NCBI RefSeq assembly: GCF_002980495.1
Contig: NZ_PVBR01000013.1
Coordinates: forward strand, 1 to 64,000
Direction: 5' to 3'
DNA: 64,000 nucleotides
DNA from: Phyllobacterium phragmitis
GTDB lineage: Bacteria > Pseudomonadota > Alphaproteobacteria > Rhizobiales > Rhizobiaceae
Numbering within the stretch: the first letter of the stretch is position 1; each line of letters starts with the position of its first letter. A program made the translations under genes and the position numbers. Under the pieces are notes generated by a model. The model did no database searches. It was given only the letters and a program-made list of their open reading frames with translations, and was not told the origin of the DNA. Positions 7,519-43,534 of this stretch are shown here, in pieces.

Positions 7519-7563
7519 CGCCTGCTGCTGCCTATCAACCTTCCCGAAAATTGGAGAAATACC

Positions 7564-8832: not shown

Positions 8833-8895
8833 TCGTTTGGCTCATCAAGGCGGGCGGCTTCGGTCGCCCGCTCTATGAACCAAAGGAGAAGTGAA

Positions 8896-9641: not shown

Positions 9642-9670
9642 CTGGGTCAATCATTCTTCAGGAGGCCGAA

Positions 9671-10201: not shown

Positions 10202-10204
10202 ACC

Positions 10205-10978: not shown

Positions 10979-10994
10979 CGGGGAGCGCACCCAC

Positions 10995-11345: not shown

Positions 11346-11349
11346 TGGG

Positions 11350-11550: not shown

Positions 11551-11959
11551 GGCCGTCACGCGCCGGCTGAATGCGCTCGTCCCGAACTTGGAAGTCAAGC
11601 TCGAAAAAGTTCAGCTAGAGCTTGCCCAAGAAGGGGCGCGCCGGATTGCGGCCCGCGCCCCTGGGGATGGCGATTACAAGGCGAGCATTCAGGGGGACAA
11701 ACTCTCCAACCGCCAAAAGAAATCCGTCTTCGGGCAGCGCGCGTCTAAGGACACCAATGCGACCGGGATTTTCGCCGAATACATTTGGCGCTGGCTGGAG
11801 TTCGGCACGGGGCCGAGAACACAGAAAACGACCGGGCGCTATAACGGCTTAGGGCCGCGACTGCCACACATCTTTCCGACCTGGCGAGCGTTCAAGCCCA
11901 AGGCGCTCCGCAAGATGCGGAGGGTCATCAACCAAGTGGTCAAGGACGCGAATTGGTAA
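11519..11959 (+). CDS. HK97 gp10-family minor virion protein (146 aa)
   Basis: Start ATG at 11519 follows GAGGACG. The product shows the gp10-like layout: N-terminal helices (LNALVPNLEVKLEKVQLELA), an RIAARAPGDGDYKASI segment, then YIWRWLEFGTGPRTQ and a C-terminal aromatic/basic helix (FPTWRAFKPKALRKM). These proteins belong to the neck or tail-completion ring. The stop TAA overlaps the next ATG. Length is normal. Confidence 0.8.
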   Translation: MALKTKVLGREAVTRRLNALVPNLEVKLEKVQLELAQEGARRIAARAPGDGDYKASIQGDKLSNRQKKSVFGQRASKDTNATGIFAEYIWRWLEFGTGPRTQKTTGRYNGLGPRLPHIFPTWRAFKPKALRKMRRVINQVVKDANW

Positions 11960-12357
11960 TGTCGCCATCACTCGAATTGCAAGAGGCGATCTACGCCAGG
12001 CTTTTGTCAGATGCCACAGTGTCGGTGCTGATCGCGGATCGCGTGTATGACCGTGTTCCGGAGAATGCCGAGTTTCCGTATGTGGCGTTCGGCAATTTCG
12101 ATATCATCCGCGATGATGCTCAGTGCATCAGCGGCTATGAAATCCATGTCGACCTCGATGTCTGGTCGCGCGCGGTCGGCAAGCCAGAAGCCCACAACGT
12201 GACCTATGCGATCACCAAGTCGTTGCATAATTGGCCTGGAGCCCTCCCGTCCTTCGTGATGACCGGGTTCCAGCACCTCGATACCCCGACGTTCTTTGAT
12301 CCGGACGGACTGACCACGCACAGCGTCGTTCGGTTCGTCGCGTTCATCAACGAATAA
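11959..12357 (+). CDS. Tail completion/terminator protein, DUF3168 family (132 aa)
   Basis: The ATG at 11959 overlaps the previous TAA. Characteristic stretches are LELQEAIYARLLSDATVSVL, VYDRVPENAEFPYVAFG and a C-terminal VVRFVAFINE, as in DUF3168 proteins that cap the siphophage tail tube at the head end. It ends the head-neck block; a hairpin follows before the tail tube gene. Confidence 0.85.
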   Translation: MSPSLELQEAIYARLLSDATVSVLIADRVYDRVPENAEFPYVAFGNFDIIRDDAQCISGYEIHVDLDVWSRAVGKPEAHNVTYAITKSLHNWPGALPSFVMTGFQHLDTPTFFDPDGLTTHSVVRFVAFINE

Positions 12358-12383
12358 CTGCGCTCACATTCCTGCCTTCCAAC

Positions 12384-12407
12384 ACCTCGCCTTCAGCGGG
12401 GTTTCTT
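12384..12407 (+). terminator. Hairpin, weak terminator or attenuator
   Basis: ACCTCGC (12384-12390) pairs with GCGGGGT (12396-12402) over a five-base loop, with one G-T wobble, followed by TTCTT. It lies between the neck genes and the major tail tube gene, in the only gap over 60 bp of this block. It could lower readthrough or set a processing point for the abundant tail tube message. The T tract is short, so full termination is doubtful. Confidence 0.45.
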
Positions 12408-12426
12408 GTCATGAAAGGACGTTCTC

Positions 12427-12852
12427 ATGCCCCAACAGAAAGGCCGCTTGCTGCTCATCAAGATTGGTGACGGCGCTGAAACCGAGGTGTTCGCAAATCT
12501 TTGCGGGTTCAAAACGCAGACTTTCAACCTGTCTGCTTCGGAAGTCGATACGACCATTCCGAATTGCCTCAGCCCCGGCGATGCAGTTCAGCGAACCATT
12601 GAGCCGGGTATTGTCAACCGGACGTTCTCCGGGACGGGTGCATTCGTCAGTGGCGGTACCCAAGCAATCCTGATGGGGCACGTCCGCGGTGGAACCGTTT
12701 TCAATGCCGAGGTGATCGTGCCAGGGGACGGTGAATATGCCGGGTCGTGGATGGTCTCCGAATTCGAGTTCTCCGGCGAGATGGAGGGCAATATGGAGTT
12801 CAGCGCAACTTTCGGCGCAGCCGGCCCGCTGGCCTTCACGGCGGAGGTTTAA
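12427..12852 (+). CDS. Major tail tube protein (141 aa)
   Basis: Opens with PQQKGRLLLIKIGDGAETEVF and contains GFKTQTFNLSASEVDTT and VNRTFSGTGAFVSGG, then EFEFSGEMEGNMEFSATFGA, the usual architecture of TP901-1/GTA-like tail tube proteins. It is expected in many copies stacked around the tape measure. The AGGAC in front of the ATG and the isolated position after a hairpin fit separate high expression. Length is typical. Confidence 0.85.
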   Translation: MPQQKGRLLLIKIGDGAETEVFANLCGFKTQTFNLSASEVDTTIPNCLSPGDAVQRTIEPGIVNRTFSGTGAFVSGGTQAILMGHVRGGTVFNAEVIVPGDGEYAGSWMVSEFEFSGEMEGNMEFSATFGAAGPLAFTAEV

Positions 12853-12855
12853 GCG

Positions 12856-13212
12856 ATGGCTGAGAAAGAACGCGAATTCCCGCTGCCAGTAAACGGGGCG
12901 CGTGGTGAGGTTGCTCTATGGGTGGGCGATGTCCCGCTTGTCATTGCCGCTGAGATGGAGGGGCTGTCGGTCCTATCGACGCGGCTTGAGTGCAAATCCA
13001 TTCAGGATCTCTTTACGAGGCTATCAGGCGCGGAGGTTGCCGCAACCCGTGCAGCGATCCCCTCATTGACCGTGCGGGGCGAACCCGCGAAAGCGCTGGA
13101 AAAGTTAAAGCTGAAGCATTTTGCGGCCATCGCAGAAGCGTTTGCCAGGGCGCTATCCCATCATTTTGAGGATGACGAGGGAAACGCCGGGGCCGCCGAG
13201 GGGAAAAAATAG
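12856..13212 (+). CDS. Tail assembly chaperone, first part (gpG-like, 118 aa)
   Basis: Starts three bases after the tail tube stop. The sequence (FPLPVNGARGEVALWVGDVP, TRLECKSIQDLFTRLSG) resembles GTA gp10-type proteins encoded just before the tape measure. It terminates at TAG 13210-13212 directly after the run GGGGAAAAAA (13200-13209). As in phage lambda gpG, the short form and a frameshifted long form probably act together on the tape measure. The C-terminus FEDDEGNAGAAEGKK is acidic and flexible, suited as a linker to the second part. Confidence 0.75.
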   Translation: MAEKEREFPLPVNGARGEVALWVGDVPLVIAAEMEGLSVLSTRLECKSIQDLFTRLSGAEVAATRAAIPSLTVRGEPAKALEKLKLKHFAAIAEAFARALSHHFEDDEGNAGAAEGKK

Positions 13213-13409
13213 ATCTCCTCCCTTGGCGGCAGTGGCAGGAGATTGCCTACGGCGCACTGAGATGGACGCCGGACGTATTCTGGCGTTCAACGCTCAGTGA
13301 ACTGGTTATTGCGATAGACGGATATTGCGAAGCCAAAGGCATCGAGAAGTCAAAGGCGGCAGCGCCGTCTAAAGATGAAATTGATGCACTGCTGGCAAAA
13401 TATGGATGA
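13203..13409 (+). CDS. Tail assembly chaperone, second part in -1 frame (gpT-like)
   Basis: The -1 frame is open from 13176 to TGA 13407-13409 and encodes IDLLPWRQWQEIAYGALRWT, then DVFWRSTLSELVIAIDGYCE and a Lys/Ala tail, the hallmark of the phage tail assembly chaperone partner. This frame has no ATG, GTG or TTG start, so it must be joined to the preceding protein by slippage of Lys codons AAA-AAA (13204-13209), giving EGKK-IDLLPW. The fused product would be about 184 residues. The TAG right after the slip site would increase shifting. Confidence 0.75.
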   Translation, partial: EKIDLLPWRQWQEIAYGALRWTPDVFWRSTLSELVIAIDGYCEAKGIEKSKAAAPSKDEIDALLAKYG

Positions 13410-13415
13410 GGGTGC

Positions 13416-13676
13416 CTAACCCTCCTCCCTGCTTCCGTGTGAGACCGTCTGAAGACCGACGCAAAGCATAATGATGCCGGCCAGCGTGGCAGCTATCATT
13501 AGGCCAACCACAACTTCAGCAACAATTAGCCGGTTTTCAGCGCCTCGCGCGCCTGCATGTACGACATGAGCAGCGATCCGCCATGCAGACCAGCCAATGA
13601 CCGGGCAAGCAATTAGCAGGGCAGCGCCAAATTTTCCCGTGTCTGTAAGGCGTTTCGTCGTCTTCAAAGCATTCAT
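13416..13676 (-). CDS. Antisense small two-span membrane protein, putative moron (86 aa)
   Basis: Reads leftward from ATG 13674-13676, with GGGGGAC six bases before it, to TAG 13416-13418. Two transmembrane helices are evident, about residues 14-38 (FGAALLIACPVIGWSAWRIA) and 50-76 (IVAEVVVGLMIAATLAGIIM), with a charged C-terminus SHGSREEG. It fills the whole gap between the chaperone and the tape measure and is the only minus-strand gene among head and tail genes. Such single reversed genes are often morons expressed from the prophage, commonly in superinfection exclusion. The family is unknown; that role is inference. Confidence 0.6.
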   Translation of the reverse strand: MNALKTTKRLTDTGKFGAALLIACPVIGWSAWRIAAHVVHAGARGAENRLIVAEVVVGLMIAATLAGIIMLCVGLQTVSHGSREEG

Positions 13677-13728
13677 CACTGTCCCCCAAATCCCTCTTCG
13701 CGCGGGGTTCCTTATAGGATGACAACCC

Positions 13729-16026
13729 ATGGCAGACAAGACTGACGATCTGGTGCTGAGCATCAGCGCCGACGTTGCGGCGCTCCGCCGAAGCTTGAAG
13801 AAGGTGGAAGGCGCTATCGCCACTTCCTCCAATGAAATCCAGAAGCAGTTCGATAATGCCGGAAAAGGTATTGACCGGTCGATCACAACCTCGATGCAGT
13901 CCCGCATCAATGCGATGGTCGGTATCGGGACAAAATCCGCCAAGGAATGGAACGGCGTACTGGCGGGGCAGGGCGCGGAGTTGGAAAAGCTCCGGGCAAA
14001 GTACAATCCGGTGTTTGCCGCCATCAACGAATATAAGGCGTCTGTCGTTAGCATTCAGCAGGCCCACCGTGTGGGGGCCATTTCTGCCGACGAAATGACG
14101 TCAGCGATCCAGCGCGAGCGTAGGGCGACACTGGAAAGCATCTCTGCGATTAAGCAGCGAAATTCCGCAGTGTTATCGGCCAGGCGCTCACCGGCGCTTG
14201 GCGGGAGCAACTTCAATACGTCGAACATTGCCGCTCAATTTCAAGATATCGCCGTTACGTCCGCCATGGGGATGTCGCCGGTTCAAATCGCACTGCAGCA
14301 GGGAACGCAGCTATCCGCCGTCTTCAACCAGATGGGAAAGGGCCGCGAGGTGATTGCGGGTATCGGCGCGGCCTTCGCATCCATTGTCAATCCAGTCTCT
14401 CTTGTCACGATAGGTGTGGTCGCAGCTGGTGCGGCGCTGTACCAGTACATAGCAACCGGCAAGAAAACCAAAGACCTTACCGTCCTCTTCCAGCAGCACG
14501 CCGAAAGCATCGCACTGGTCAAGCAGCAATACGGCGACTTCGGGAACCTCATTCAGTCCTTCAGAACTGAGGATGCCGCGTCTCAAATTCGGGCGCTTAA
14601 GGATCAACTTTCTGAATTTTATCAGGTGGCCGGAGAGGAGGCATCGCGGGTTGCATCCTTCGGCCCAGGGCTGCTGACTGAACTGGCGCCAAGCTTTAAG
14701 GATTTCCCTGCTGCTGCGAGGGATATGCAGCATGCATTCTCGGATCTCAATGCTTCGATACGTCAGGGAAAACCTGACCTATTGGCATTCCGGGAGGCGA
14801 TGTCAAAGATCGCAAACGATACTTCCATCCCTCAGAACATTCGCGATGAAGCCAAGGCTATCAGCGAATTGGACGATGCATCGGTGAAGGCGGCAAGAGC
14901 AATTCCAGGCGTCAATGCGGCACTTGGATTGCTTGGCGACATCGCGTCTGAACAGGTGGGGAAGATCAATGCCGTCAAGAAGGCGCTGGAGGAGCTAGCC
15001 GGGATTGCTGTACCTGCACTTGGCGACAGCGAACGCGCCTATAAGGCCTATGACGAAGCCGTCCGGAACGATGGCAGCATGGAAAACCGCATCAAGGCCG
15101 CCAATGAGTTGCAGAAGGCGCTCGGCCGCATTCGGGCATCACAGATGCCGGTTCCGGGAGAAAAGCCCAACCGCGAAAGCATCGCACCGGAAAAGCCAAA
15201 ATCCACGCGCACGAAGCTCACTGATGCGGAGAAGGAAAAGAAGGCAATTGATGATGTCATTGCCAGCCTGAAATTCGAGCAGGAACAGCTCGCGCGCTCT
15301 GCCGTAGTGCAGCGCGTTTATAACGAGTTGAAACGGGCCGGCGTCGACATCAACAGCAAAGCAGGCCAGGAAATCGCGGCCCTTGCAACGAGAAATGCAG
15401 AGCTCGAGGAAAGCCAGAAGAAACTCAATAAGGCGCAACAGGATTTCAACGATGGAATTGATCAGTTGAGCTCTGATGCGCTTGACGCAATGGGAAATGT
15501 CATCGCCGGAACCGAAGACGCCGCCGACGCCTTCAAGAAGCTGGCCATCGAGATCGTCAAGTCCGCCTTGACCGGCAAGGGTGCGTACTCTGATTTCTTC
15601 GCGAGCCTTTCAAACTCCGGGATGCTTGGAATCTTCGGGTCGCTTTTTGGCGGAGGAGGATCTGCCTTCTCGAATAGTGGGCAGTTGGCCAAGAGCTTCG
15701 CGAGCGGCGGCGGCATGTACGCCAATGGCACCGGCTTCGCAAAGGGCGGCTTGTCGCTTGTGGGTGAGCGTGGGCCGGAACTGATCAAGCTCCCCGGTGG
15801 AAGCCAGGTTCTCCCCAATGTGCCGTCGATGAAGTCGCTCGCCGCGGCGAATGCCAATCGCTCGAATGTCCATGTCACGGTCGGCGTCGATGTCGACAAA
15901 TCCGGCAATCTCATGCCGTTCGTCGTTTCGGTCAGCGATCGGCAGGCATCGGCGGCCGTCGCGCAGAACAACGTTAAAGCGCTTCCGACCCTCGTCAACC
16001 AGTACGCCGGAAAGAGGCAGCGATGA
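13729..16026 (+). CDS. Tail tape measure protein (765 aa)
   Basis: Sets tail length and is ejected during infection. The prophage tape-measure domain (TMP_2 type) is at about residues 165-245 (SNIAAQFQDIAVTSAMGMSP, then a hydrophobic stretch VIAGIGAAFASIVNPVSLVT). Long helical coiled-coil regions follow (DVIASLKFEQEQLARSAVVQ). A Gly-rich C-terminus (FGSLFGGGGSAFSNSGQ, KGGLSLVGERGPELIKLPGG) is usual. At about 1.5 angstrom per residue a tail near 115 nm would be expected. The stop overlaps the next gene (ATGATG). Confidence 0.9.
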   Translation: MADKTDDLVLSISADVAALRRSLKKVEGAIATSSNEIQKQFDNAGKGIDRSITTSMQSRINAMVGIGTKSAKEWNGVLAGQGAELEKLRAKYNPVFAAINEYKASVVSIQQAHRVGAISADEMTSAIQRERRATLESISAIKQRNSAVLSARRSPALGGSNFNTSNIAAQFQDIAVTSAMGMSPVQIALQQGTQLSAVFNQMGKGREVIAGIGAAFASIVNPVSLVTIGVVAAGAALYQYIATGKKTKDLTVLFQQHAESIALVKQQYGDFGNLIQSFRTEDAASQIRALKDQLSEFYQVAGEEASRVASFGPGLLTELAPSFKDFPAAARDMQHAFSDLNASIRQGKPDLLAFREAMSKIANDTSIPQNIRDEAKAISELDDASVKAARAIPGVNAALGLLGDIASEQVGKINAVKKALEELAGIAVPALGDSERAYKAYDEAVRNDGSMENRIKAANELQKALGRIRASQMPVPGEKPNRESIAPEKPKSTRTKLTDAEKEKKAIDDVIASLKFEQEQLARSAVVQRVYNELKRAGVDINSKAGQEIAALATRNAELEESQKKLNKAQQDFNDGIDQLSSDALDAMGNVIAGTEDAADAFKKLAIEIVKSALTGKGAYSDFFASLSNSGMLGIFGSLFGGGGSAFSNSGQLAKSFASGGGMYANGTGFAKGGLSLVGERGPELIKLPGGSQVLPNVPSMKSLAAANANRSNVHVTVGVDVDKSGNLMPFVVSVSDRQASAAVAQNNVKALPTLVNQYAGKRQR

Positions 16027-16682
16027 TGGCTCTTTCCGACATTGTCGACATCCTCGACGGCTTTCCGGGATGGACCACCGATTTCCGGCTGATGCGCCGG
16101 GATCAGACGGCGCGCAGTCAGGGCGGATCGACGATCGTCAAGCGGCGCAACACTCCGCTATGGACGCTGACGGCGCAGACGATCTCACTGCGCCCGAACG
16201 ATCTGGACCGCTGGCGGGCGCGCATGGAGGCGCTCGAGGATGCATCGCGGCTGTTCTGGGGCTATTCGATGTCCCGGTGCTATCCGATCCTCTATCCGAA
16301 TGGCTCCTGGCCGACCGGTCCCGCTTTCAACGGGCTGACGGCCACGATCAACACGCTCAACGCCAATAACAAGGCGATGACGCTGGCCGGAGTGCCTGAA
16401 GGGTATAAGCCGTCCGAAGGCGACATGCTGTCTTTCCAGTACGGTCCCGATCCGAGCTATGCGCTTCACCGCATCGAGGAGACCGTGACGGCCAGCGCCG
16501 GCGGCGTGACGCCAGAGTTTGAGGTGAGGCCGCATATCCGGCCTGGCGCCGTCGTCGGCACTGCCGTCCGCCTCGTTCGCCCTCGATGCCTGATGATGAT
16601 CGTTCCCGGCTCTGTCTCTGCGCCGGCTGATCTCAACACCGGGCGGGGCACCGTTTCGTTTCAAGGGCTGCAGGTACTCTGA
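16023..16682 (+). CDS. Tail-tip / distal tail protein (219 aa)
   Basis: Second in the GTA-like order tape measure, distal tail, hub, peptidase, tip protein. The sequence has a beta-rich N-terminal half (DFRLMRRDQTARSQGGSTIV, LWTLTAQTISLRPNDLDRWR) and a C-terminal half ending GRGTVSFQGLQVL. ATG at 16023 or 16026 overlaps the tape measure stop. I do not recognise a named domain; role comes from position and length. Confidence 0.65.
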   Translation: MMALSDIVDILDGFPGWTTDFRLMRRDQTARSQGGSTIVKRRNTPLWTLTAQTISLRPNDLDRWRARMEALEDASRLFWGYSMSRCYPILYPNGSWPTGPAFNGLTATINTLNANNKAMTLAGVPEGYKPSEGDMLSFQYGPDPSYALHRIEETVTASAGGVTPEFEVRPHIRPGAVVGTAVRLVRPRCLMMIVPGSVSAPADLNTGRGTVSFQGLQVL

Positions 16683-17311
16683 TGCGCAATATCTCACCGC
16701 AGGTTCAGGCCGCGCGCTCGGCGCGCGTGGTCGAGGACCGTGATTTCCTATGGCTGGTCGGCAAGCGCCGCGATACCGGCGCGCAGGAGTCCGCCGGCTT
16801 CTGGTCGGACGTCGGCACGATCAACGCGCCCGTGGTCGACGGCATTACCGGCGTGACGGTCGTTCGCATCTTCACCGGTGCGGTTTCGCTGATCGATATC
16901 AGCGACATCGCCATGGTGAACGACGTCATGTATCGCACCGTTGACGTCAAGATGACACAGCTTCACCCCGCCGTTGAGCAGGCAGTGCGTCTCTACGATG
17001 CCCGTCAGGCGGAAATCCAGATATGGCGGGGCACTTATGACCCCGACACGATGAACCTCATCGAACCGGCTGCAATCCGCTTTGTCGGGCGCGTCGATGA
17101 GCAGCCGATCATAACTGGCGCGGAAGGTGAGGAAAGCACGCTGACGCTGCGCTGTCGGAACCATGCGCAGGAACTTGACAGGGCATCGACGGACAAGCGC
17201 TCCGACGAAAGCCAGAAGCTTCGGAACGCCGGGGATCGTTTTTATCAGTACACGTCTGCGATGGCGTCCAGAAAGCAGTTCTGGGGTCAGAAGAAAGAGG
17301 CGATCAAGTGA
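16682..17311 (+). CDS. Tail-tip hub-like protein (209 aa)
   Basis: Start overlaps the preceding TGA. The C-terminal region with DKRSDESQKLRNAGDRFYQY and SRKQFWGQKK is a pattern seen in tail proteins encoded just before an NlpC/P60-type peptidase in gene-transfer-agent-like and lambda-like phages. The middle (LYDARQAEIQIWRGTYDPDT; LTLRCRNHAQELDRAS) fits a beta-barrel hub. The exact family was not verifiable here. Confidence 0.65.
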   Translation: MRNISPQVQAARSARVVEDRDFLWLVGKRRDTGAQESAGFWSDVGTINAPVVDGITGVTVVRIFTGAVSLIDISDIAMVNDVMYRTVDVKMTQLHPAVEQAVRLYDARQAEIQIWRGTYDPDTMNLIEPAAIRFVGRVDEQPIITGAEGEESTLTLRCRNHAQELDRASTDKRSDESQKLRNAGDRFYQYTSAMASRKQFWGQKKEAIK

Positions 17312-17718
17312 GCCGGGAATTCGGATGGCGCACGCGCCTCAATGCGGAACTCGACCGGTCCCGTATGATGCCGTTCGCGTGGGGAACGAATGACTGCTGC
17401 ACGTTCGCTGCGCGTTGTGTTCTGGCCGTCACCGGCAAGGATACTACCGCCGCATATTCGACAAGGTACCGGACGGCTAAAGGGGCACTCTCCACGCTGA
17501 AGCGTGCCGGCTTCGATGATCTGACGCAACTCGCCGCGGCGCATTTCGAAGAGATTGCGCCCTCATTGGCGAGTGCCGGCGATCTGGCCGCGATCCGTTC
17601 TGATGCAACAGGCTGGGCGCTCGGCGTCGTCATTGGCGAGCGCATCGTCTTCATTGGCCCCGAAGGCTTGGGGTCCGTTCCCGTCACCGATGCCGTGAAA
17701 GCATACCGGGTAGGATAA
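17308..17718 (+). CDS. Putative tail NlpC/P60-like peptidase (136 aa)
   Basis: GTG start overlaps the previous gene. The segment PFAWGTNDCCTFAARCVLAV supplies the Asp/Asn-Cys active-site helix of papain-like NlpC/P60 enzymes. A later GWALGVVIGERIVFIGPEGL gives the expected beta strands, but a clear catalytic His is not visible, so it may be a DUF6950-type relative. In this position such proteins cut or bind peptidoglycan during DNA entry, or act in tip assembly. Confidence 0.65.
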   Translation: MSREFGWRTRLNAELDRSRMMPFAWGTNDCCTFAARCVLAVTGKDTTAAYSTRYRTAKGALSTLKRAGFDDLTQLAAAHFEEIAPSLASAGDLAAIRSDATGWALGVVIGERIVFIGPEGLGSVPVTDAVKAYRVG

Positions 17719-17721
17719 TCG

Positions 17722-20418
17722 ATGTTCACTGTCCTGTTTTTGACCGCTTGGTTCGTCCTGGCGACGATGACGGCTGCGCAAGCGGACCCTGTCTCGACGG
17801 TCATCGCCACCGGTCTGCTCGGCGCGGCCGCGCAGGGAACATTCGTCTTCTCGGCAACGGTCAGCGTGCTCAATTTCGCGATCGGCGTCGGGATTAGCTA
17901 TGCGTCCCAGGCGCTTCTCGGCAAAAAGCAGGACAGCGCCGTCGGCGGCATGAGCGGTACGCTACAGCTCGGCGGCATTGTTCCACGGTCATTCATCGTT
18001 GGCCGGTCCGCCACGGCGGGATCGCTGTCCTACGCCGGCACCTGGGGGAAATCCGGAAAAACGCCGAACGCCTATCTGACGGAAGTCATTCCGGTTTCAG
18101 ACATTCGCGTCAAAGGCCTCGTCGGCCTCTATGTCGACGATGCCAAGGTGGAGATCGATTACAGCAACACCTCCTACGGCGATCAGGGTTTTCCGGTACC
18201 GGCTTATGCCGATGGCAGCGACAACCGGATGTGGGTCAAATTCTATGACGGGACGCAGACCGTCGCCGACCCCTTCCTTATCGAGAAGTTCGGTTCGGAT
18301 CCGAACTATCCCTATACGGCGGATATGGTCGGCTTCGGCGTCGCCTATGCCGTGGTTACCACGCAATACAACACGGAGCTTTTCAGCGGCTATCCCGTGT
18401 TCAAATTCGAGATCGAGGGAGGGCTTTGGTACGATCCGCGCCTCGACACCACGAACGGCGGCTCCGGTCCGCAGCGCTGGAATGATCCGAGCACCTGGAC
18501 GTACACGGATAATCCGGCGGTCATCCTCTACAATATCCTGCGCGGTCTCTATTTCGGGGGGAAGTGGTTCTATGGCCTTCAGGCGCTTGTAGCTTCGCGG
18601 CTGCCGAACGGCTCATGGTTCGCGGCCATGAACGAATGCGATTTGCAGGTTCCGAAAGCCGGCGGCGGCACTGAAACGCAGTATCGTTGCGGCGGCGAGA
18701 TATCTGTCAACACCAAGGTCTACGATGCGGTGCAGGCGCTTCTCACCGCTTGCAATGGTCGCCTGGCGGAGATCGGCGGCGTCTACAAGTTGAGCGTCGG
18801 CGCGGCGAATGCCGCCGTTGTCGCGTTCGATGATGAAATGCTGGAATCGACCGATCCTCAGCTTCTTGATCCGTTCCCATCAATCGAGGCAACGATCAAC
18901 GGTATCGCCGCGACCTATCCGGAACCTGAAGAGGGATACGCGCCAAAGGATGCGCCGGCACGATATGATGCCGATCTTGAAGCGGCTGACGGTGACCGCC
19001 GACTTGCGGCCGACGTCTCATATGATCTCGTGCCCTACAAGGAACAGGTCCAGCGCCTGATGCTGTCGGCGCTCCACGAGGCGCGCCGGTTCCGCAAGCA
19101 TACAGTCGTCGCCGGCCCATGGGCGTGGATACTGGAGCCGAACGACATCGTCGCCTGGACGTCAGAGCGCAACGGCTACATTTCAAAGCTGTTCCGCGTT
19201 GATGCAGTGACTGACCAGGCTGATCTCAATATCGGGTTGGTGCTGGTCGAGGTCGATCCGGCTGACTATGACTGGAACCCCGATACCGATTATATCCCGG
19301 TCCCGGTCAATCCTGTTGTCGTTGGTTATCCGACGCCTCAGCCTATGTATGGCTGGCAGGCATTCCCTGCGCAGTATCTTGATGCCAACGGCAACACCCG
19401 GCGCCCGTCGATCGGGATCGCCTATGCCGGCGGCATGACCAATGTCCGGGCAATCCGGGTGCAGGTGCGGGAAGCATGGGGCGTCAAGAAAATCGCCTTC
19501 GATGGCGAGCTTCCCTATGTCGCGCCGCTCAACCAGTCATATTCTGTCACACTCAACGCTCTCCTGCTGCCCGATTCAAACTATGAAGCATCCGGCCAGT
19601 ACATCATGCGCGGCGGCGGTCCATCGACGCCATCGGCGTGGCTCCCGGTCAAGACCGACAACATCCTGTTTGGTCCGCTCGATATCTATCCGATCAACAT
19701 CGGGCAGCTAAACGGCGACGTCACGAAGGTCACGGAATGGCTCGGCAACTCGTTGCGGTACGTGCAGGAGGAGCTCGACCGGATCGGCAAGCTCGCGACT
19801 GAGCAAGACGCCTCGAAAACGCTCGATAAGAGGCAACTCCGCACCGAAGTGTCGGCGACGGCCGCAGGCCTCCGGGCTGATTACACGCTGCAGATCCTCG
19901 CAGCAGTTGGCCCCGGCTCGGCCATCGTTTCGCGCATTGAGCAACTGGAGGTGCAGGTCAATAATGACATCGCCCAGGCGGTTGATTTGCTCTCGACGGA
20001 AATCTCTACTGTCAATGGAAAGGTGACGGCGAACGCGCAGGCGATCACCGCATTGAGCGCGACGGTTGGGGAAGTCTCCGCCAGCGTCAACATTCGCGGG
20101 CAGGCCGAAGCTTCGCCTGGCGGCGGCTGGGCAAGATGGGGTGTGCAGGTAAAGACCGGCTCCGACAATACGTGGTCGAGCGGTGTATTCTTCATAGACG
20201 TAAACGGTGGCACATCGCGCGCTGTCTTCAACGTCGACCAGTTCATCGTCACGAATGGCTCAGATAGTCAGGCACCGCTCACATTCATCAACGGCGAACT
20301 CGCGCTTCAGGTGGCGCGCATCCGAACTGCGATTGTCGAGAAGCTTTCGACATTCTCCGGGAAAACGAACTTCGGGATCCTAGCGCCCGGCGTCGAGGGG
20401 CTGGAGGTCATATACTGA
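17722..20418 (+). CDS. Large tail-tip / central host-specificity protein, gpJ-like (898 aa)
   Basis: The longest gene of the tail module, three bases after the peptidase-like gene. The N-terminus (MFTVLFLTAWFVLATMTAAQ; FNFAIGVG-type hydrophobic stretches to residue about 75) is followed by a VGGMSGTLQLGGIVPRSFIV segment common to gpJ-like proteins. A fibronectin-like middle and a helical region (about residues 680-800, rich in Ala, Val, Asn) precede the C-terminal AEASPGGGWARWGVQVKTGS domain typical of DUF1983-containing tips. It likely contacts the host receptor. The end overlaps the next ATG. Confidence 0.85.
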   Translation: MFTVLFLTAWFVLATMTAAQADPVSTVIATGLLGAAAQGTFVFSATVSVLNFAIGVGISYASQALLGKKQDSAVGGMSGTLQLGGIVPRSFIVGRSATAGSLSYAGTWGKSGKTPNAYLTEVIPVSDIRVKGLVGLYVDDAKVEIDYSNTSYGDQGFPVPAYADGSDNRMWVKFYDGTQTVADPFLIEKFGSDPNYPYTADMVGFGVAYAVVTTQYNTELFSGYPVFKFEIEGGLWYDPRLDTTNGGSGPQRWNDPSTWTYTDNPAVILYNILRGLYFGGKWFYGLQALVASRLPNGSWFAAMNECDLQVPKAGGGTETQYRCGGEISVNTKVYDAVQALLTACNGRLAEIGGVYKLSVGAANAAVVAFDDEMLESTDPQLLDPFPSIEATINGIAATYPEPEEGYAPKDAPARYDADLEAADGDRRLAADVSYDLVPYKEQVQRLMLSALHEARRFRKHTVVAGPWAWILEPNDIVAWTSERNGYISKLFRVDAVTDQADLNIGLVLVEVDPADYDWNPDTDYIPVPVNPVVVGYPTPQPMYGWQAFPAQYLDANGNTRRPSIGIAYAGGMTNVRAIRVQVREAWGVKKIAFDGELPYVAPLNQSYSVTLNALLLPDSNYEASGQYIMRGGGPSTPSAWLPVKTDNILFGPLDIYPINIGQLNGDVTKVTEWLGNSLRYVQEELDRIGKLATEQDASKTLDKRQLRTEVSATAAGLRADYTLQILAAVGPGSAIVSRIEQLEVQVNNDIAQAVDLLSTEISTVNGKVTANAQAITALSATVGEVSASVNIRGQAEASPGGGWARWGVQVKTGSDNTWSSGVFFIDVNGGTSRAVFNVDQFIVTNGSDSQAPLTFINGELALQVARIRTAIVEKLSTFSGKTNFGILAPGVEGLEVIY

Positions 20419-22028
20419 TGCCACGGCTATTCGCAGGAACGATCAACGGCAAGCCGGTGCTCAAGATCACCAAGAGCAATTCGGATGCGCCTTGGGTGGT
20501 CGCTAACACGGCCTATAACAAGTTCATTTTCAACTCGGAGAACGACAAGCTCGGCTATATCAAGGATCCGTATCTGCTCGCGTGCACAGCCGCGACCTAT
20601 CCGGGGCCGCCCCAGGCCGGCGCGGCGCTTTATTACGATCTGGATGGAAGTGCGACAACGGGTAGCCGGACGCTCGTGGCTCAGGGCAATGGCGGTTCAA
20701 ACCCTCCGAACTACTATCCTAAATATCTCGTCAGCCGGATGTATCCCGGCGATTTCGTGCCGATGTTCGAAAGCCGTGTCCGCAATCGCGCCACAGGTCG
20801 CGTGACCGGTGCGAACTCCTTTCTATCATGGATCAGCGGCGCTTCGCCGGGGCAATTGCCAGAAGTCGGGCTATACATTTTCTCAAATTTCGGGGGTGAT
20901 CTGCAGAAAGTCATCGAAATCCGGGACGCGGGATGGTGGGCGCGCCCTGGCAATATTCATTCCCGCTATGGCTACGGTCTCGGAAATTGGATTGCATGTG
21001 CATCCGGAAGTCAGACCTACGGAACAACTACCGCGAGTGTCCGAGCAGAAAGCGATGTGATCAGCGCATTCTGGGATTTGCCAGCCGATCCAAGCGCGAT
21101 CCCAGATAACAACATCACACCGGTCCCCGGCACCAAGGCGCTGATGATACGCCCCGATACCTTCCGGCTAGCGAGGGGAGGTCATAACGCGGAGACGGCT
21201 TCTGGCCGAAATATGCTCATCGACAGTCAACGGCCGGCGACGCTGATCGTCATGGCCGGCCAGTCGCCTGTCATTCCCGCCGGCGGTTCGGTGACGGTCG
21301 GCAATTCGCCGGTCGATCTGACGGCGAATGTCATTGTTGATTTCATGATCAAGCGCGACGGACAGCCGTTCTATCTGCCTGGATATGTGCCGACCGGCCT
21401 TTCGCGCGATCGCCAATTCGGTTTCTCCTATATCGTCAACCAGCGCTCTATCACGCTTTACAATACCTCAGACGATGCGACAGTCATTCGCTACCTCGTC
21501 ACCGGCGTTGATCTCAACGGCAGGTCGAGCGGCGGGAGCCGCGTCATGTTCACCGGACCGGGCTTTGGTCAGATCAAGATTCCCGGCTCAAGCGACACGG
21601 CGACGCGGCTTGGCGACATCCTGCTCGACACGCGCTTTCCGATCGTGCCGATCATCAGTCAGGCCTATATCCCCGCAAGCCAGTTCACTGACGCTTCGGA
21701 CGGCGCGGCTTTCGGCAATGTGGCGAAGATCATCAACTTTCCGAACGATGGATTTTATCCCTTCGTAAAATACACGACGATTTTTGATAACAGGATCCGG
21801 CCTCCCTACATGGCGCAGCTTTATTACTATGCGGGGGGAGCCGCTCCGGCAGGGGAGTATGACGGGCGTCCGACGAACCAAAGCTCGGTGTGCCGCGTCG
21901 AGGATACCTTCGCGAAATTTCACCTCTCTCCGGGCAATCCTTCGACCTACAACTCTACCGGCGGTATCGTCCGCGACGAGCCCGATCCACTCGGCATCCG
22001 CTATTACGTGTTCGCCATTCCGATCTAG
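20418..22028 (+). CDS. Tail fibre or tip-associated protein (536 aa)
   Basis: Starts within the tip protein stop (TGATG). It is beta-rich, with many Tyr, Gly, Pro and Asn (FAGTINGKPVLKITKSNSDA; PAGGSVTVGNSPVDLTANVI; NQRSITLYNTSDDATVIRYL). Long aromatic and proline stretches fit a receptor-binding or spike protein. No domain is recognised. Placed between gpJ-like tip and knob fibre, so host range is its likeliest role. Confidence 0.6.
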   Translation: MPRLFAGTINGKPVLKITKSNSDAPWVVANTAYNKFIFNSENDKLGYIKDPYLLACTAATYPGPPQAGAALYYDLDGSATTGSRTLVAQGNGGSNPPNYYPKYLVSRMYPGDFVPMFESRVRNRATGRVTGANSFLSWISGASPGQLPEVGLYIFSNFGGDLQKVIEIRDAGWWARPGNIHSRYGYGLGNWIACASGSQTYGTTTASVRAESDVISAFWDLPADPSAIPDNNITPVPGTKALMIRPDTFRLARGGHNAETASGRNMLIDSQRPATLIVMAGQSPVIPAGGSVTVGNSPVDLTANVIVDFMIKRDGQPFYLPGYVPTGLSRDRQFGFSYIVNQRSITLYNTSDDATVIRYLVTGVDLNGRSSGGSRVMFTGPGFGQIKIPGSSDTATRLGDILLDTRFPIVPIISQAYIPASQFTDASDGAAFGNVAKIINFPNDGFYPFVKYTTIFDNRIRPPYMAQLYYYAGGAAPAGEYDGRPTNQSSVCRVEDTFAKFHLSPGNPSTYNSTGGIVRDEPDPLGIRYYVFAIPI

Positions 22029-22084
22029 CCGAAAGCCTCAAAGCACCAGTCAACCAGAACCCGCCATCGCGGGAAGGAGCCCCA

Positions 22085-22315
22085 ATGTCTGATCCATCAA
22101 ATCAGCAGACCATAGACCTCGAAGCGATCGCCAACGAAGCGCTCGCCATGGCCGACTATCTCAAGCAGCGCAATTTGGTTCTTGCCAACGAGGTTGTCCG
22201 CATGAGGCGATATATCGAAGCGCAGCAAGCGGAGAAGGAGGAGCAAGAACTCGATGGCGCTGCAGTTGCGGCCGCCGAGGAAGCGCATGAAGCCCGGAAG
22301 GCGGAGGGGAAATAG
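22085..22315 (+). CDS. Small coiled-coil protein in fibre block (76 aa)
   Basis: ATG at 22085 follows GGAAGGAG. The protein is almost wholly helical and charged (IANEALAMADYLKQRNLVLA; IEAQQAEKEEQELDGAAVAA), with a heptad-like pattern through residues 12-60, so a coiled coil is likely. It is two bases from the next fibre gene. It may be a fibre assembly helper or structural stalk; function unknown. Confidence 0.55.
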   Translation: MSDPSNQQTIDLEAIANEALAMADYLKQRNLVLANEVVRMRRYIEAQQAEKEEQELDGAAVAAAEEAHEARKAEGK

Positions 22316-22317
22316 CC

Positions 22318-23439
22318 ATGGCAATCCGTCCAGATTGGGATGTCGGCACGATCACGCTGACGGCCGGACAAACTGCCTTCACAACGTCAGGCTCGGCGCT
22401 GCTGACGGCTGGCGTAGAAGCAGGCGATATGATCATAACGCCAAGCGGCAATGCGCTGATCATCGGGGCTACTCCAACCCAACAGAATGCCGGCGTCTTG
22501 TTCCTCCCGTGCCCCGCCGCTGCGGCCGGCACAAATATGCCGCTCCGCATTCGCTTTCAGCCGGACGGCAGCCGGTTCCAGGCTGCTTATCGGATCGTCG
22601 CCGACCTTCTGGATAGCGGAAATCTTGAAGCACTTGCGGCCTTGGTCGGTGCTGCCGACACGCTGCCCTATTTCACCGGCCCTGGGGCTATGGATTTGAC
22701 GGCGCTGACGGCGTTTGGGCGATCATTGATAGGGGCGTCGAACGGCGGTGATGCATATTCGGCGCTGGGAGAGGTTCCAGGTGCGCAGATTCCTCCAAGG
22801 ATTGGCACCATCACTCCGGGTGCCGCCGATCTCAATGCCATCACAGAAAGCGGCTTCTACGGTGCGGATGGTGGCACATTGAATCGTCCTGGAGACGCCG
22901 GTAACTGGGTCGTTCTTCATATGGCCAGAGTAACAACAGTCCATGCCCAGTTGGCAATCAGCCGGTCCAACGACAACCTTGCCAATGGTATCCAGTACCG
23001 CTTCTACAATGCGACATCATGGTCCGCATGGGTCAGCGTATTCACGCAAGCCAGCATTATCGGGACGGTATCCCAGTCTGGAGGAGTGCCTACCGGCGCG
23101 CTCATAGAGAGAGGGAGCAACGCGAACGGCACCTATACGAGATATGCAGACGGTACTCAGGAATGCATATTTGTCCGCGATCAGTCCTCAGAGAACTGGA
23201 ATGTAGCAAGTGGTGGTTTGTTCATCGGCCCGCTCTACTTCTGGACCTTTCCAGCTGCATTCTCAGATGGATCGCCTTTTGTTGTGGGGTCCACGTCACG
23301 GTCTGGGAATGAGGCTCGAGGTGTCACCGTGCGCAACGTCATAACGAGTGGGGCAAATATGTACCCGTGGTCATCAGCGTCGATTACTGCCGGCCCCTCA
23401 AAACTTGTCACCTACTATGCGAGCGGGAGGTGGTTCTGA
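22318..23439 (+). CDS. Tail fibre with pyocin-knob-like domain (373 aa)
   Basis: The segment around residues 175-240 (LNAITESGFYGADGGTLNRP; ITRSNDNL-like strand and WSAWVSVF end) matches the knob domain of R-pyocin and phage fibres. The tip domain follows (IERGSNANGTYTRYADGTQE; SGANMYPWSSASITAGPSKL). The N-terminal 100 residues form a shaft. It is expected to bind the cell surface. The stop overlaps the next gene (TGATG). Confidence 0.75.
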   Translation: MAIRPDWDVGTITLTAGQTAFTTSGSALLTAGVEAGDMIITPSGNALIIGATPTQQNAGVLFLPCPAAAAGTNMPLRIRFQPDGSRFQAAYRIVADLLDSGNLEALAALVGAADTLPYFTGPGAMDLTALTAFGRSLIGASNGGDAYSALGEVPGAQIPPRIGTITPGAADLNAITESGFYGADGGTLNRPGDAGNWVVLHMARVTTVHAQLAISRSNDNLANGIQYRFYNATSWSAWVSVFTQASIIGTVSQSGGVPTGALIERGSNANGTYTRYADGTQECIFVRDQSSENWNVASGGLFIGPLYFWTFPAAFSDGSPFVVGSTSRSGNEARGVTVRNVITSGANMYPWSSASITAGPSKLVTYYASGRWF

Positions 23440-35042: not shown

Positions 35043-35846
35043 ATGGCGATGCTTGTCGACAGCCATTGCCATCTGGACTTTCCGGATTTCGCCGAGGAGC
35101 GCGATGCCATCGTGCAGCGCGCCCTCGATGCCGGCGTTCGCCGCATGATCACCATCTCCACCCGCGTCCGCCGGTTTGCCCAGATCCTCGAAATCGCCGA
35201 AAATTACGATCAGGTCTATTGCTCCGTCGGCACACATCCCAACAATGCGCATGAGGAGCCCGATGTCACTGCCGAGGAACTGATTCGGCTGTCCGAGCAT
35301 CCAAAGGTGGTGGCGATCGGCGAAGCTGGTCTCGACTATCACTACGATTATGCCCCGCCCGACGTGCAGGCCAAGAGCTTTCGCGCTCATATCGAGGCTG
35401 CACGCCAGACGGGATTGCCGCTGGTCATCCACGCGCGCAGTGCGGATGCGGATATGGCCGCCATCTTGACCGAGGAGACGGGGAAGGGCGCATTCCCCTT
35501 TATCCTGCATTGCTTTTCCTCAGGCAAGACGCTGGCCGAAACGGGGATCGCCCTTGGCGGCTATGTCTCCTTCTCAGGCATTCTGACGTTCAAGAACTCG
35601 GTCGAGTTGCGGGACATCGCACGCATCGTGCCGCGCGATCGCCTGCTCGTCGAAACCGACGCGCCCTATCTGGCGCCGGTGCCGTATCGAGGAAAACGCA
35701 ACGAACCGTCCTTCGTCCGCCATACGGCCGCCGTTCTGGCCGAAACCATCGGTGTCGAGCCGGAGGAACTGGCCGGGATTACGACGGAAAACGTCTTCCG
35801 GCTGTTTTCCAGGATGCCGAATCCGGCGAATGCCGAAAATGGCTGA
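35043..35846 (+). CDS. tatD: TatD-family metal-dependent DNase/hydrolase (267 aa)
   Basis: TIM-barrel metal hydrolase of the YcfH/TatD type. Metal ligands are visible in VDSHCHLDFPDF, VAIGEAGLDYHYDY, LVIHARSADAD, FILHCFSSG and LVETDAPYLAP. ATG 35043 is preferred over TTG 35037 because it fits the conserved MLVDSHCHLD opening. The end overlaps the next gene by eight bases. In this operon the family is thought to act in DNA repair or quality control; the substrate is not settled. Confidence 0.92.
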   Translation: MAMLVDSHCHLDFPDFAEERDAIVQRALDAGVRRMITISTRVRRFAQILEIAENYDQVYCSVGTHPNNAHEEPDVTAEELIRLSEHPKVVAIGEAGLDYHYDYAPPDVQAKSFRAHIEAARQTGLPLVIHARSADADMAAILTEETGKGAFPFILHCFSSGKTLAETGIALGGYVSFSGILTFKNSVELRDIARIVPRDRLLVETDAPYLAPVPYRGKRNEPSFVRHTAAVLAETIGVEPEELAGITTENVFRLFSRMPNPANAENG

Positions 35847-36669
35847 CCGTTTCCGCTTCACCATTCTCGGCTGCGGATCTTCGCCCGGTGTGCCGCGGAT
35901 CACCGGCGACTGGGGAAATTGCGACCCGAAGAACCCAAGGAACAAACGTCGCCGCGCGGCAATGCTGGTCGAGCGTATCGCCGAAAACGGCGCAACGACC
36001 ACCGTCATCATCGACACAGGCCCGGACTTCCGGGCGCAGATGATCGATGCGGGGGCAGGGTTGCTCGACGCGGCGGTCTATACCCACGCCCATGCCGACC
36101 ATATTCATGGCCTCGACGACCTGCGAACCTATGTCGTCGAGAAGCGGCGGCTGATGGACATCTATGCCGATCGCGTGACCCTGTCGCGCATGGACGAAGC
36201 GTTTAGCTATTGCTTCGAAACGCCGCCCGGATCGAAATATCCGCCGATCGTGCAGGCGCACCAGATCGATGAGGACACGCCGTTCAAGATCACGGGCGCC
36301 GGCGGCACCATTCCGTTCCTGCCGCTGCCGCAGGTCCATGGCGACATCATGTCCCTCGGCTTCCGCATCGGCGATGTCGCTTATTGTTCCGATGTCAGCG
36401 CTTTTCCGGAGAAGACCGTCGAGCGTCTTCATGGCCTGGAGGTGCTCATCATCGACGCGCTGCAATATCGTCGGCATCCGAGCCATTTCTCACTAGGCGA
36501 AGCGCTGGAATGGATCGAGCGCCTCGCGCCGAAGCGCGCGATTTTGACGCATATGCATGTGCCGCTCGACTATGAGACGGTTCTGCGCGAGACGCCTGAT
36601 CATATCGAACCCGCCTATGACGGAATGCGTTTCGAGGTGGATGTGTCCAAAATCGATAAGGCTGGTTAG
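35839..36669 (+). CDS. MBL-fold metallo-hydrolase, PhnP-like (276 aa)
   Basis: Zinc hydrolase. The metal motif HAHADHIHGLDD, an upstream TVIIDTGPDFR, and later LPQVHGDIMSLG and DVAYCSDVSAF, ending with AILTHMHVPLDYE, place it with PhnP/YycJ-like phosphodiesterases. ATG at 35839 lies inside tatD; another at 35830 is in frame. It is the last gene of the rightward operon before the dif-like site. The substrate is unknown; cyclic phosphate or nucleotide esters are typical. Confidence 0.88.
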   Translation: MADRFRFTILGCGSSPGVPRITGDWGNCDPKNPRNKRRRAAMLVERIAENGATTTVIIDTGPDFRAQMIDAGAGLLDAAVYTHAHADHIHGLDDLRTYVVEKRRLMDIYADRVTLSRMDEAFSYCFETPPGSKYPPIVQAHQIDEDTPFKITGAGGTIPFLPLPQVHGDIMSLGFRIGDVAYCSDVSAFPEKTVERLHGLEVLIIDALQYRRHPSHFSLGEALEWIERLAPKRAILTHMHVPLDYETVLRETPDHIEPAYDGMRFEVDVSKIDKAG

Positions 36670-36744
36670 ATATAGCGCTGGGCGATACGGCTTCAGGGCC
36701 GGCGCGGGGATCATCATACCTGACCGCACCCCAGCTTCATCAAT

Positions 36745-36772
36745 CGATCACATAAGATAGATTATGGAACTA
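36745..36772. other. dif: Candidate dif site (XerCD chromosome dimer resolution site)
   Basis: On the reverse strand the 28 bases read as an 11-bp arm ending CATAA, the 6-bp centre TCTATC, and an 11-bp arm starting TTATGT, the layout of bacterial dif (CATAA-N6-TTATG). By eye 16 of 28 positions match the E. coli dif, including both inner pentamers. It lies in a 204-bp gap between oppositely oriented gene groups that converge on it: seven of eight chromosomal genes to the left are +, and 23 of 26 to the right are -. That is the expected picture at a replication terminus. Confidence 0.6.
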
Positions 36773-36873: not shown

Positions 36874-37692
36874 TCACAACCGTTTCATCGCAAGCATAAG
36901 ATGCCCAGGCACCGGTTGGCCTTGTTCATAGCGCACCACGATATCCATGCATTCGACACATTCCATGCCGTTGCGCTCAAGCATCTGGCGCACGTAAGCC
37001 GCTGAATGGGCAAAGCGCTGATATGGGCCGACCACGAACGGCCGTCCTTTGAAAATCTCGTCGCTCAGCGTTTCGCTTGAGAACGCGAATGTTCCGCCGC
37101 GGATGAGATGCTTGCCGACGCCCGCGAAGAAAGCGTCGAGCTCTCCCATATAGGGCAGCACGTCCGTTGCCACGATCAGGTCCCAGGCCGGGCCTTCCGC
37201 CGTCTGCAGGAAGCGGACGGCTTCGCCGACGAACAGGACGTCGTAATCACCCTTTTCATAGGCGATCTCGACCATGTTCTCCGAGATATCGACGCCGGTC
37301 TTGTGATCGGCCATGTCATCCAGCGCGTCGGCCGACAGTCCCGTGCCGCAGCCGAGATCGAGCATTCGCGTGAAATGCACGGAGGAATCGCGCGTCAGCA
37401 GCATGTCGCGCAATTGCAGTGGCACGTCATAGCCGAGCTGGTCGACGAGAATGCTGTCGAACATTTCGGCGTGCTGGTCGAACAGGGTTTGCACATAGGC
37501 GTCCGGCGCCTTCGGCGGCACCGCGCCATGGCCTATGCTGGCGAGCCTGACTGCTGCGCCGCCATGATCGTCGGGGTCGATCTTCAGCACCTCGGTATAA
37601 GCGAGCGCTGCGCCTTCGAGATCGCCGGATTTTTCGAGATTCAGCGCACGGTTATAGGCTTTTTCCAGCGCTTTCTCATCGAAGTCGGTCAT
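36874..37692 (-). CDS. Class I SAM-dependent methyltransferase with N-terminal TPR-like segment (272 aa)
   Basis: Residues 1-45 (KALEKAYNRALNLEKSGDLE; YTEVLKIDPDD) look like one TPR unit. The methyltransferase motif I is MLDLGCGTGLSADAL at about residue 120, followed by KTGVDISENMVEIAYEKGDY and LIVATDVLPYMGEL. The rest fits a small-molecule or ubiquinone-type enzyme. The substrate is unknown. It is downstream of the BaiN-like gene on the same strand, 71 bases apart. Confidence 0.82.
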   Translation of the reverse strand: MTDFDEKALEKAYNRALNLEKSGDLEGAALAYTEVLKIDPDDHGGAAVRLASIGHGAVPPKAPDAYVQTLFDQHAEMFDSILVDQLGYDVPLQLRDMLLTRDSSVHFTRMLDLGCGTGLSADALDDMADHKTGVDISENMVEIAYEKGDYDVLFVGEAVRFLQTAEGPAWDLIVATDVLPYMGELDAFFAGVGKHLIRGGTFAFSSETLSDEIFKGRPFVVGPYQRFAHSAAYVRQMLERNGMECVECMDIVVRYEQGQPVPGHLMLAMKRL

Positions 37693-42139: not shown

Positions 42140-43534
42140 CTACTTCGAGCCCTTCATGCGCTCGCGCAAGGTCTTTCGCGCCGTGGCGGTCATATCCGCC
42201 TCGATCCGCAACGATCCGTCGTCCAGATTGTCGCGACGGATATTGCTGGCATGCTGATAGATCCAGTCGAGCATGTGCAGATCATTGGGCGCCAGATCGA
42301 GCGCGATATGCTCAAGAGCACCGGAAATACGGCGTTCGATAACGGACAGAAGACCATCGATGCCCTCCCCTGTCGCCGCGGAAATGGCGATCGGGCGTGC
42401 ATCTTCCGGATCTGCCGCGCTCAGCCGCAGCGCCGCCTCGCGCCCCGTTTCATCAAGCAGGTCGATCTTGTTCCAGACTTCCAGTATGCGCCTGTTGTCG
42501 CCGCGTTCGATGCCCAGGCTTTCAAGGATGCTCGCGACATCCTCGGCCTGTGCGGCATTGTCGGGGTCGGAAATATCGCGCACATGGAGGATCAGATCCG
42601 CTTCCACCACTTCTTCGAGCGTCGCCCGGAAGGCGGCCACCAGATGGGTTGGCAGGTTGGAGATGAAACCGACCGTATCCGACAGGATCACCGTTTCGCC
42701 ATGCGGCAGGCGGATGCGGCGCAGTGTGGGATCGAGCGTGGCGAACAGCATGTCCTCCGCCAGCACTTCCGCACCGGTCAGGCGGTTGAACAATGTCGAT
42801 TTGCCCGCATTGGTGTAGCCCACAAGCGCGATGATCGGATGCGGCACCTTCTTGCGCTTCTGGCGATGCAGCGTGCGGGTGCGCACCACCGTTTCGAGCT
42901 CGCGTTTGATGCGCAGGATCTTCTCCTGCAGCATACGCCGGTCGGCCTCGATCTGCGTTTCACCCGGACCGCCGAGAAAGCCGCCGCCGCCGCGCTGGCG
43001 CTCAAGGTGGGTCCAGCTTCTGACCAAGCGCCCCTTCTGATAATTCAGATGCGCCAGTTCGACCTGCAGCGAGCCTTCCTTGGTTTGCGCCCGCCGCCCA
43101 AAGATTTCGAGAATCAGCCCTGTCCGGTCGATGACCTTGACATGCCATTCCTTCTCGAGATTGCGCTGCTGCACCGGCGTCAGCGCATGATCAACGATGA
43201 CCAGCCCCGCCTCTTTTTCCCCAATGATTTCGCCGATCGTCTCGACCTTGCCTGAGCCTAGAAGTGTGGCAGGCCGTGGATTGGAGACGGTGACGATATC
43301 GCAATGAACGAGATCGAGATCGATGGCCCGCGCCAGACCTTCCGCCTCTTCTAGCCGCGCTTCGCTGCTGCGGCTGAATTGCGGGCGTTTTGCATCATCT
43401 CCCTGCCCTGCATCCTGCAGACGCTCGGGAAGGATCGGAACGATAACGACGGCGCGTGTCGGGCCTTTTGCGGACGTACCGAAGCCGGTATCCGCATCTC
43501 CCTCACGGGTCGTGCGCCCTTTCGATTTGCTCAA
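42140..43534 (-). CDS. hflX: Ribosome-associated GTPase HflX (464 aa)
   Basis: GTPase that splits stalled ribosomes. N-terminal HflX domain with SRPATLLGSGKVETIGEIIG and VELAHLNYQKGRLVRSWTHL, the middle GGGGFLGGPGETQIEADRRM, then the GTPase G1 GYTNAGKSTLFNRLTG, G3 LSDTVGFISNLP and G4 NKIDLL. It is downstream of hfq, 58 bases apart, on the same strand; the hfq-hflX pair is widely conserved. Size is normal, with a small acidic N-terminal extension. Confidence 0.94.
   Translation of the reverse strand: MSKSKGRTTREGDADTGFGTSAKGPTRAVVIVPILPERLQDAGQGDDAKRPQFSRSSEARLEEAEGLARAIDLDLVHCDIVTVSNPRPATLLGSGKVETIGEIIGEKEAGLVIVDHALTPVQQRNLEKEWHVKVIDRTGLILEIFGRRAQTKEGSLQVELAHLNYQKGRLVRSWTHLERQRGGGGFLGGPGETQIEADRRMLQEKILRIKRELETVVRTRTLHRQKRKKVPHPIIALVGYTNAGKSTLFNRLTGAEVLAEDMLFATLDPTLRRIRLPHGETVILSDTVGFISNLPTHLVAAFRATLEEVVEADLILHVRDISDPDNAAQAEDVASILESLGIERGDNRRILEVWNKIDLLDETGREAALRLSAADPEDARPIAISAATGEGIDGLLSVIERRISGALEHIALDLAPNDLHMLDWIYQHASNIRRDNLDDGSLRIEADMTATARKTLRERMKGSK

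Follow-up and report, generated by a model that had tools for sequence, protein, structure and literature searches.

Two genes in the 64,000-nucleotide stretch of DNA analysed here (the window) point at the same 204-bp intergenic gap: an MBL-fold metallohydrolase-like gene on the + strand (35839–36669) and a methyltransferase-like gene on the – strand (36874–37692, with its stop at 36874). Neither matched an NCBIfam model above cut-off. The gap holds a 28-bp sequence at 36745–36772, which reads CGATCACATAA-GATAGA-TTATGGAACTA in an 11-6-11 layout. The initial annotation had described this sequence as a dif-like 28-mer between genes, and we confirmed that description, the sequence being identical to a published dif at 24 of 28 positions. 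Farther to the right of the site lie a flavoprotein gene, galE, hflX and trkA (ten window proteins were scanned). The prophage noted nearby is real: genes for terminase, portal, protease, capsid, tape measure and tail fibre proteins were located at 3907–23439, all on the + strand, and nine of ten proteins tested matched PHROGs families, head or tail functions being assigned to eight.

When the gene beside the site was compared, Phyllobacterium salinisoli, Mesorhizobium sp. RMAD-H1 and Paramesorhizobium deserti came out as the closest named records (91% protein identity). These are not classical Brucella, to whose chromosome I the initial annotation had referred. In P. salinisoli (L036) an identical 28-mer adjoins the same gene as in the window. 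A dif lay inside the fetched flank (up to 3 kb) of the MBL gene in 51 of 80 relatives' loci; its orientation agreed with that of the gene in the window and in L036, L038 and L040, which belong to the window's lineage, and was reversed in the other 48 of the 51 loci (including L041 and Mesorhizobium loci). In L182 and L183 the methyltransferase-like gene, by eye, likewise adjoins dif on the XerD side.

Identity of the 28-bp site

The left arm, CGATCACATAA (36745–36755, +), is the predicted XerC-binding arm by homology to the Rhizobiales dif sites in Table 1 of PMC2731167. The central hexamer GATAGA (36756–36761, +), the strand-exchange region, is the same as the centres of the B. melitensis chromosome I and M. 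loti dif. The right arm, TTATGGAACTA (36762–36772, +), is the predicted XerD-binding arm; its TTATGGAAC was invariant in all 80 family dif loci, an invariance that is partly built in, as the loci came from a pattern search for the core with up to 2 mismatches. Aligned with the sites listed in that table, the window 28-mer shares 24 of 28 positions with the dif of B. melitensis 16M chromosome I and 23 of 28 each with those of M. loti MAFF303099 and of the A. tumefaciens circular chromosome, so that the proposed resemblance to alphaproteobacterial dif sites was borne out. The first two of these sites are likewise intergenic. The outer XerC arm differs, reading CGATCA in the window versus TAATCG in B. 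melitensis chromosome I and AAGTCG in M. loti (PMC2731167, Table 1). Compared with the family consensus, too, the window arm is deviant in its outer part and has A instead of G at position 6, an A that 10 of the 80 family loci also have.

The CATAA-N6-TTATG palindrome, which the initial annotation had taken as the signal, was not significant as such. The 5.6-Mb assembly contains 4 copies of the pattern, no more than of its reversed control (4); the arms of the window 28-mer pair at only 6 of 11 positions, and the window contains 105 perfect 5+6+5 inverted repeats. The palindrome alone was thus rejected as evidence for dif; the claim is carried by the match to published rhizobial dif. Two other places with the palindrome, on contigs C1 and C24, were rejected as dif, with at best 16/28 and 20/28 (the latter to Bartonella quintana). 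When four dif queries were scanned over the window, every other place reached 18/28 or less, and the next best place for the B. melitensis I query reached 17/28. The E. coli dif as a query gave 16/28 only and is uninformative for this family.

The 28-mer had been expected to be conserved in relatives. Allowing up to 2 mismatches, a 20-base core of it was found in 208 of the 217 family genomes and was absent at that threshold from the other 9, with no match for the reversed-pattern control. A slightly longer pattern, also with up to 2 mismatches, was found in 35 of 61 relatives, once in 34 and twice in G031, again with none for the reversed control. Two or three core matches in some genomes are expected with several replicons. 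In the window's own assembly, ATAA-N6-TTATGGAAC with at most 1 mismatch occurred at two places (reversed control, 1): the window site, which is the sole dif-type match on its contig, C13, and C9:107120. No better match to dif therefore lies on C13. We infer a single copy per chromosome, since the two matches fall on different contigs of a draft assembly.

Terminus signals and the Xer machinery

GGGNAGGG is the FtsK-orienting motif of E. coli. On the 155-kb contig C13 the motif was distributed 10+/0– to the left of the site and 1+/16– to the right, and the best strand-separating cut fell at 36.1–40.3 kb, an interval that contains the 28-mer, with 26 of 27 motifs concordant. Within 30 kb to the left of dif all motifs are on the + strand (13966–36060; starting at 13966, 24143, 27942, 30355, 32958, 35481 and 36053), and from the site to the window end all are on the – strand (40374–63455; starting at 40374, 41014, 42363, 43401, 62767 and 63448). 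In a complete relative (G231:C1), sampled for motif and skew in 20 samples of 20 kb, both signals switched at its dif (1,527,242): the motif counts were 7+/0– in the sample at 1.50 Mb and 0+/10– in that at 1.53 Mb. GC skew was positive in 8 of the 9 samples that precede dif, negative in all 10 between 1.53 and 3.45 Mb, and had returned to positive values at 3.8 Mb. These observations support the proposal that the site lies at the replication terminus.

A skew extremum had been predicted near 36.7 kb; the cumulative GC skew maximum of C13 fell at 32,283, 4.5 kb from the site, as a shallow peak seen at the scale of one contig in a 139-contig draft. According to PMC2731167, the dif of B. melitensis chromosome I and of M. 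loti lie 712 bp and 96 kb, respectively, off the cumulative skew maximum. The reported convergence of genes on the site stood, including the 7+/1– count on its left (27.8–36.7 kb), but the exact 23 of 26 on its right was not reproduced: we counted 4+/19– at 36.7–64 kb, using an approximate gene caller of which at least one + call is wrong (42251–43252, inside hflX on the – strand).

The genome encodes the proteins that would act at such a site. Contig C4 carries XerD (TIGR02225, 336.6 bits against an NCBIfam cut-off of 329.6) and an XerC-like protein for which XerC was the best model at 296.2 bits, below its curated cut-off of 335.15, and there are two FtsK gamma domains in the genome. The second site, at C9:107113 (L002:10113), reads TTATCGCATAACGTATATTATGGAACCA. 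Around it GGGNAGGG was distributed 22+/5– and 2+/12–, and the best cut on C9 (106.4–110.5 kb; 34 of 41 concordant) holds the site. No GC skew peak was found there, the C9 cumulative maximum lying at 140,750, so the case for the C9 dif rests on the GGGNAGGG motifs. The initial annotation had allowed for a second copy on another replicon, and the C9 site, being itself at a polarity switch, is probably the dif of one. The genome has two repC genes and so, it appears, two or more repABC replicons, in keeping with a second dif. In species with several chromosomes each has a distinct dif, except in Agrobacterium tumefaciens, as stated in PMC2731167.

Identity to known dif, conservation, a single copy on the contig, motif polarity, a skew peak nearby and the presence of xerD, an xerC-like gene and FtsK gamma domains together lead us to assign 36745–36772 as the dif of the main chromosome, with a probability of about 0.96. 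Against this assignment weigh the deviant XerC arm, the sub-threshold score of the XerC-like protein, the offset and shallow skew peak on a replicon that is not closed, and the 9 family genomes without the core. XerCD binding, synapsis and recombination, and the placement of C13 on the main chromosome, are taken from what is known of the family. At such a site, a dimer formed when homologous recombination fuses two sister chromosomes would be resolved as follows. FtsK at the division septum would pump DNA in the direction set by GGGNAGGG pointing at dif from both sides, and this pumping would bring together XerC and XerD bound to two dif copies; strand exchange by XerC and XerD in the central hexamer would then yield two monomers. 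The window dif is an addition to an already known class of site.

As dif-like sites are also known from phages and islands, and prophage genes lie at about 3.9–23.4 kb, the 28-mer could be a relic or an element-borne Xer site (for example from that prophage) rather than a working dif. We consider this very improbable: two host genes enclose the site, one of which, the MBL gene, has a dif beside it in the 51 relatives' loci noted above, and GGGNAGGG polarity flips at the site, which has no other of its kind on C13. Still less weight, close to none, goes to a chance palindrome or a transcription terminator, for which the abundance of comparable inverted repeats in the window and the converging genes would speak, as it is contradicted by a core so widely conserved while its neighbours differ among the 80 family loci inspected, and the arms are A+T rich without a T run.

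Insertion sequences on the XerC side of dif

Relatives were found to have IS ends directly next to dif, beside its XerC arm. The corresponding flank of the window site (36725–36744, +), the side that IS elements occupy in relatives' dif loci, showed none by eye. We surveyed 80 dif loci, which were hand-picked among the matches listed rather than drawn at random, overlap in some genomes with the discovery set, and in 3 cases end at a contig edge on one side. At 8 of the 80, sequence homologous to an IS30 or ISNCY transposase lay no farther than 3 kb from dif, in every case beside the XerC arm and reading outward from the site; the XerD side had none over the same distance. IS-end motifs were present on the XerC side at 14 loci and on the XerD side at 0, a count biased by the choice of motifs after the XerC flanks had been viewed. 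All ten dif-side transposases tested scored above NCBIfam cut-offs, eight as ISNCY (NF033594) and two as IS30 (transpos_IS30, NF033563); the equation of NF033594 with IS1202 is our inference. Among the 66 family loci without IS-end motifs, sequence conservation extended past the 28-mer on the XerC side, with A at position –6 in 49; the most frequent base was C at –7 (35 loci) and A at –8 (30 loci). This may reflect an extended arm or the footprint of an old IS.

The ISNCY elements resemble a known case. In Acinetobacter, according to PMC10132070, IS1202-group elements, in the ISNCY category, are placed 5 bp from the XerC site of dif and of pdif, and the rhizobial elements, on the XerC side and in one orientation as in the ISAjo2 type described there, look like the same phenomenon. 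The IS30 elements differ from that type in transposase family and in being elements of about 1.12 kb; whereas the Acinetobacter elements have a 5-bp spacing and 5-bp duplications (PMC10132070), the end of the IS30 element was mostly 13–14 bp from the 28-mer. Three pairs of near-identical copies at different places gave the length of the element and showed that it starts with GGTGGGTTC. Nothing convincing was found as a 5-bp target-site duplication for the IS30 elements, with two weak candidates.

We examined the IS30 clade with the L183 transposase as a query, which matched 37 of 297 family genomes at E ≤1e-60, with 1–4 copies each. It also matched 538 plasmid records, of which 451 belong to the ten alphaproteobacterial genera listed. 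From these we assembled 70 loci: 30 of the 51 family-genome matches listed, 20 further regions, and 20 hand-picked from the plasmid records. After leaving out 1 without a match, 6 without the N-terminus, 3 duplicates and 1 with short upstream sequence, 59 remained. A dif core (ATAA-N6-TTATG at 8/9 or better) lay 62–91 bp upstream of the transposase in 41 of the 59 (33 perfect), compared with 1 of 57 in a downstream control with sequence there. Reading the core in reverse gave 40 of 59, a count that is silent on direction because the core is nearly palindromic. Direction was taken from a score over 17 arm positions, by which the direct IS30 sites have their XerC arm towards the IS; for L294 and L297, which the rhizobial arms do not fit, the direction was assigned by eye. 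Ten IS30-family copies outside the clade were also inspected, one of them without upstream sequence, and none of the 9 evaluable ones (33–41% identity to the query; four fragments) had a dif core upstream; at L282, with 42% identity, a core was present.

In the window's own genome, a search with the C9 transposase returned one IS30 copy, 82 bp from the C9 dif. This transposase has 281 aa versus 336 aa in L183, and an IS1202-like end was seen beyond it by eye. A further, more distant IS30 fragment lies on C56. On S. meliloti pSymB, GGGNAGGG polarity switched at the IS-marked site (6+/1– on the left and 0+/6– on the right within 50 kb), so that this site looks like a working dif; at the IS-marked site of an A. 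fabrum plasmid the counts (3+/0– and 0+/1–) are too few to weigh much.

The other 18 of the 59 copies fell outside the 62–91 bp rule and speak against the IS30 reading. In L252 the upstream dif was at a distance of 186 bp, with 16 of 17 arm positions matching. A dif-like sequence was found farther upstream in L251 (the same place as L289; 720 bp, 15 of 17), L288 (1712 bp, 14 of 17) and L301 (1762 bp, 13 of 17), in L288 and L301 behind an annotated ISNCY transposase. Only the XerC half site appeared by eye to be left in L240 and L261. Seven copies (L241, L245, L250, L263, L271, L291 and L303) had no dif in the stretch searched and, by eye, IS1202-like ends upstream, and at five (L260, L266, L272, L278 and L302) nothing was seen. 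At L240/L281 (G319:C2:952) the IS30 copy stands beside an apparent XerC half site with the XerD half missing. On the L288, L297, L301 and L305 plasmids, IS30 and ISNCY transposase genes are adjacent in the same orientation, in either order. A single origin of dif adjacency on the transposase tree was tried and rejected: the dif-adjacent label, set by hand, formed no clean clade, with 13 changes against a shuffle mean of 19.1, on a tree for which the program warns of long branches meeting.

A contig end lay at most about 180 bp from a dif-like site at L043, L044, L055, L097, L112 and L192 and at G001:C25, G002:C2, G175:C38, G120:C5 and G142:C18 and C30; the two G142 contigs start at the core itself. 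Those inspected (L043, L044, L055, L097, L192, G001 and G002) carry IS ends there, L112 being too short to tell. A further contig, L235, ends 343 bp from dif on the XerD side. Integration of a phage at dif was considered as a cause of these breaks and dropped, as the inspected flanks carry IS ends.

A possible beacon for transposition

We think it likely that an alphaproteobacterial clade of IS30 elements hunts dif, inserting 13–14 bp outside the XerC arm of chromosome, chromid and megaplasmid dif in one orientation, probably guided by XerC, and that an unrelated IS1202-type group uses the same flank, giving a stack of successive insertions beside an intact 28-mer. The clade spans Rhizobiales and Rhodobacterales, and perhaps Sphingomonadales. 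A transposase using XerC-bound dif as a beacon fits the side, the orientation and the near-constant distance of the IS30 insertions; PMC10132070 suggests such a beacon for ISAjo2, and 'IS30' occurs 0 times in it. We found no report of IS30 targeting dif in the literature searched, although it may be known in subscription papers or in ISfinder. PMC12907356 mentions IS30 for a reason other than dif targeting.

Alternatively, what the clade recognises might be neither dif nor XerC but the tip of an IS1202-type or IS30 element already lying at dif. IS30 prefers its own ends as targets, and in many copies an IS1202-type or other IS30-like end was seen by eye beyond the far IS30 end (e.g. L306, L305, L299, L246). 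Against this, some copies (e.g. L238, L239, L253, L287 and L295) stand at the same distance from dif with, by eye, no recognisable IS beyond the far end, and we regard tip recognition as the less likely reading but a serious rival.

For the draft chromosome, the window dif, with its XerC flank, fixes the terminus and the orientation, which is useful but ordinary. Guidance by dif would carry further. Should two transposase families have come independently to exploit this flank, a likely landing beacon would be the recombinase bound at dif, as for transposons that use resolvase sites, and the flank of dif would be a safe harbour in which insertion spares genes. IS elements would then mark the terminus of each replicon and may explain why a number of draft assemblies break close to dif, and they would offer a practical way to locate dif on alphaproteobacterial megaplasmids.
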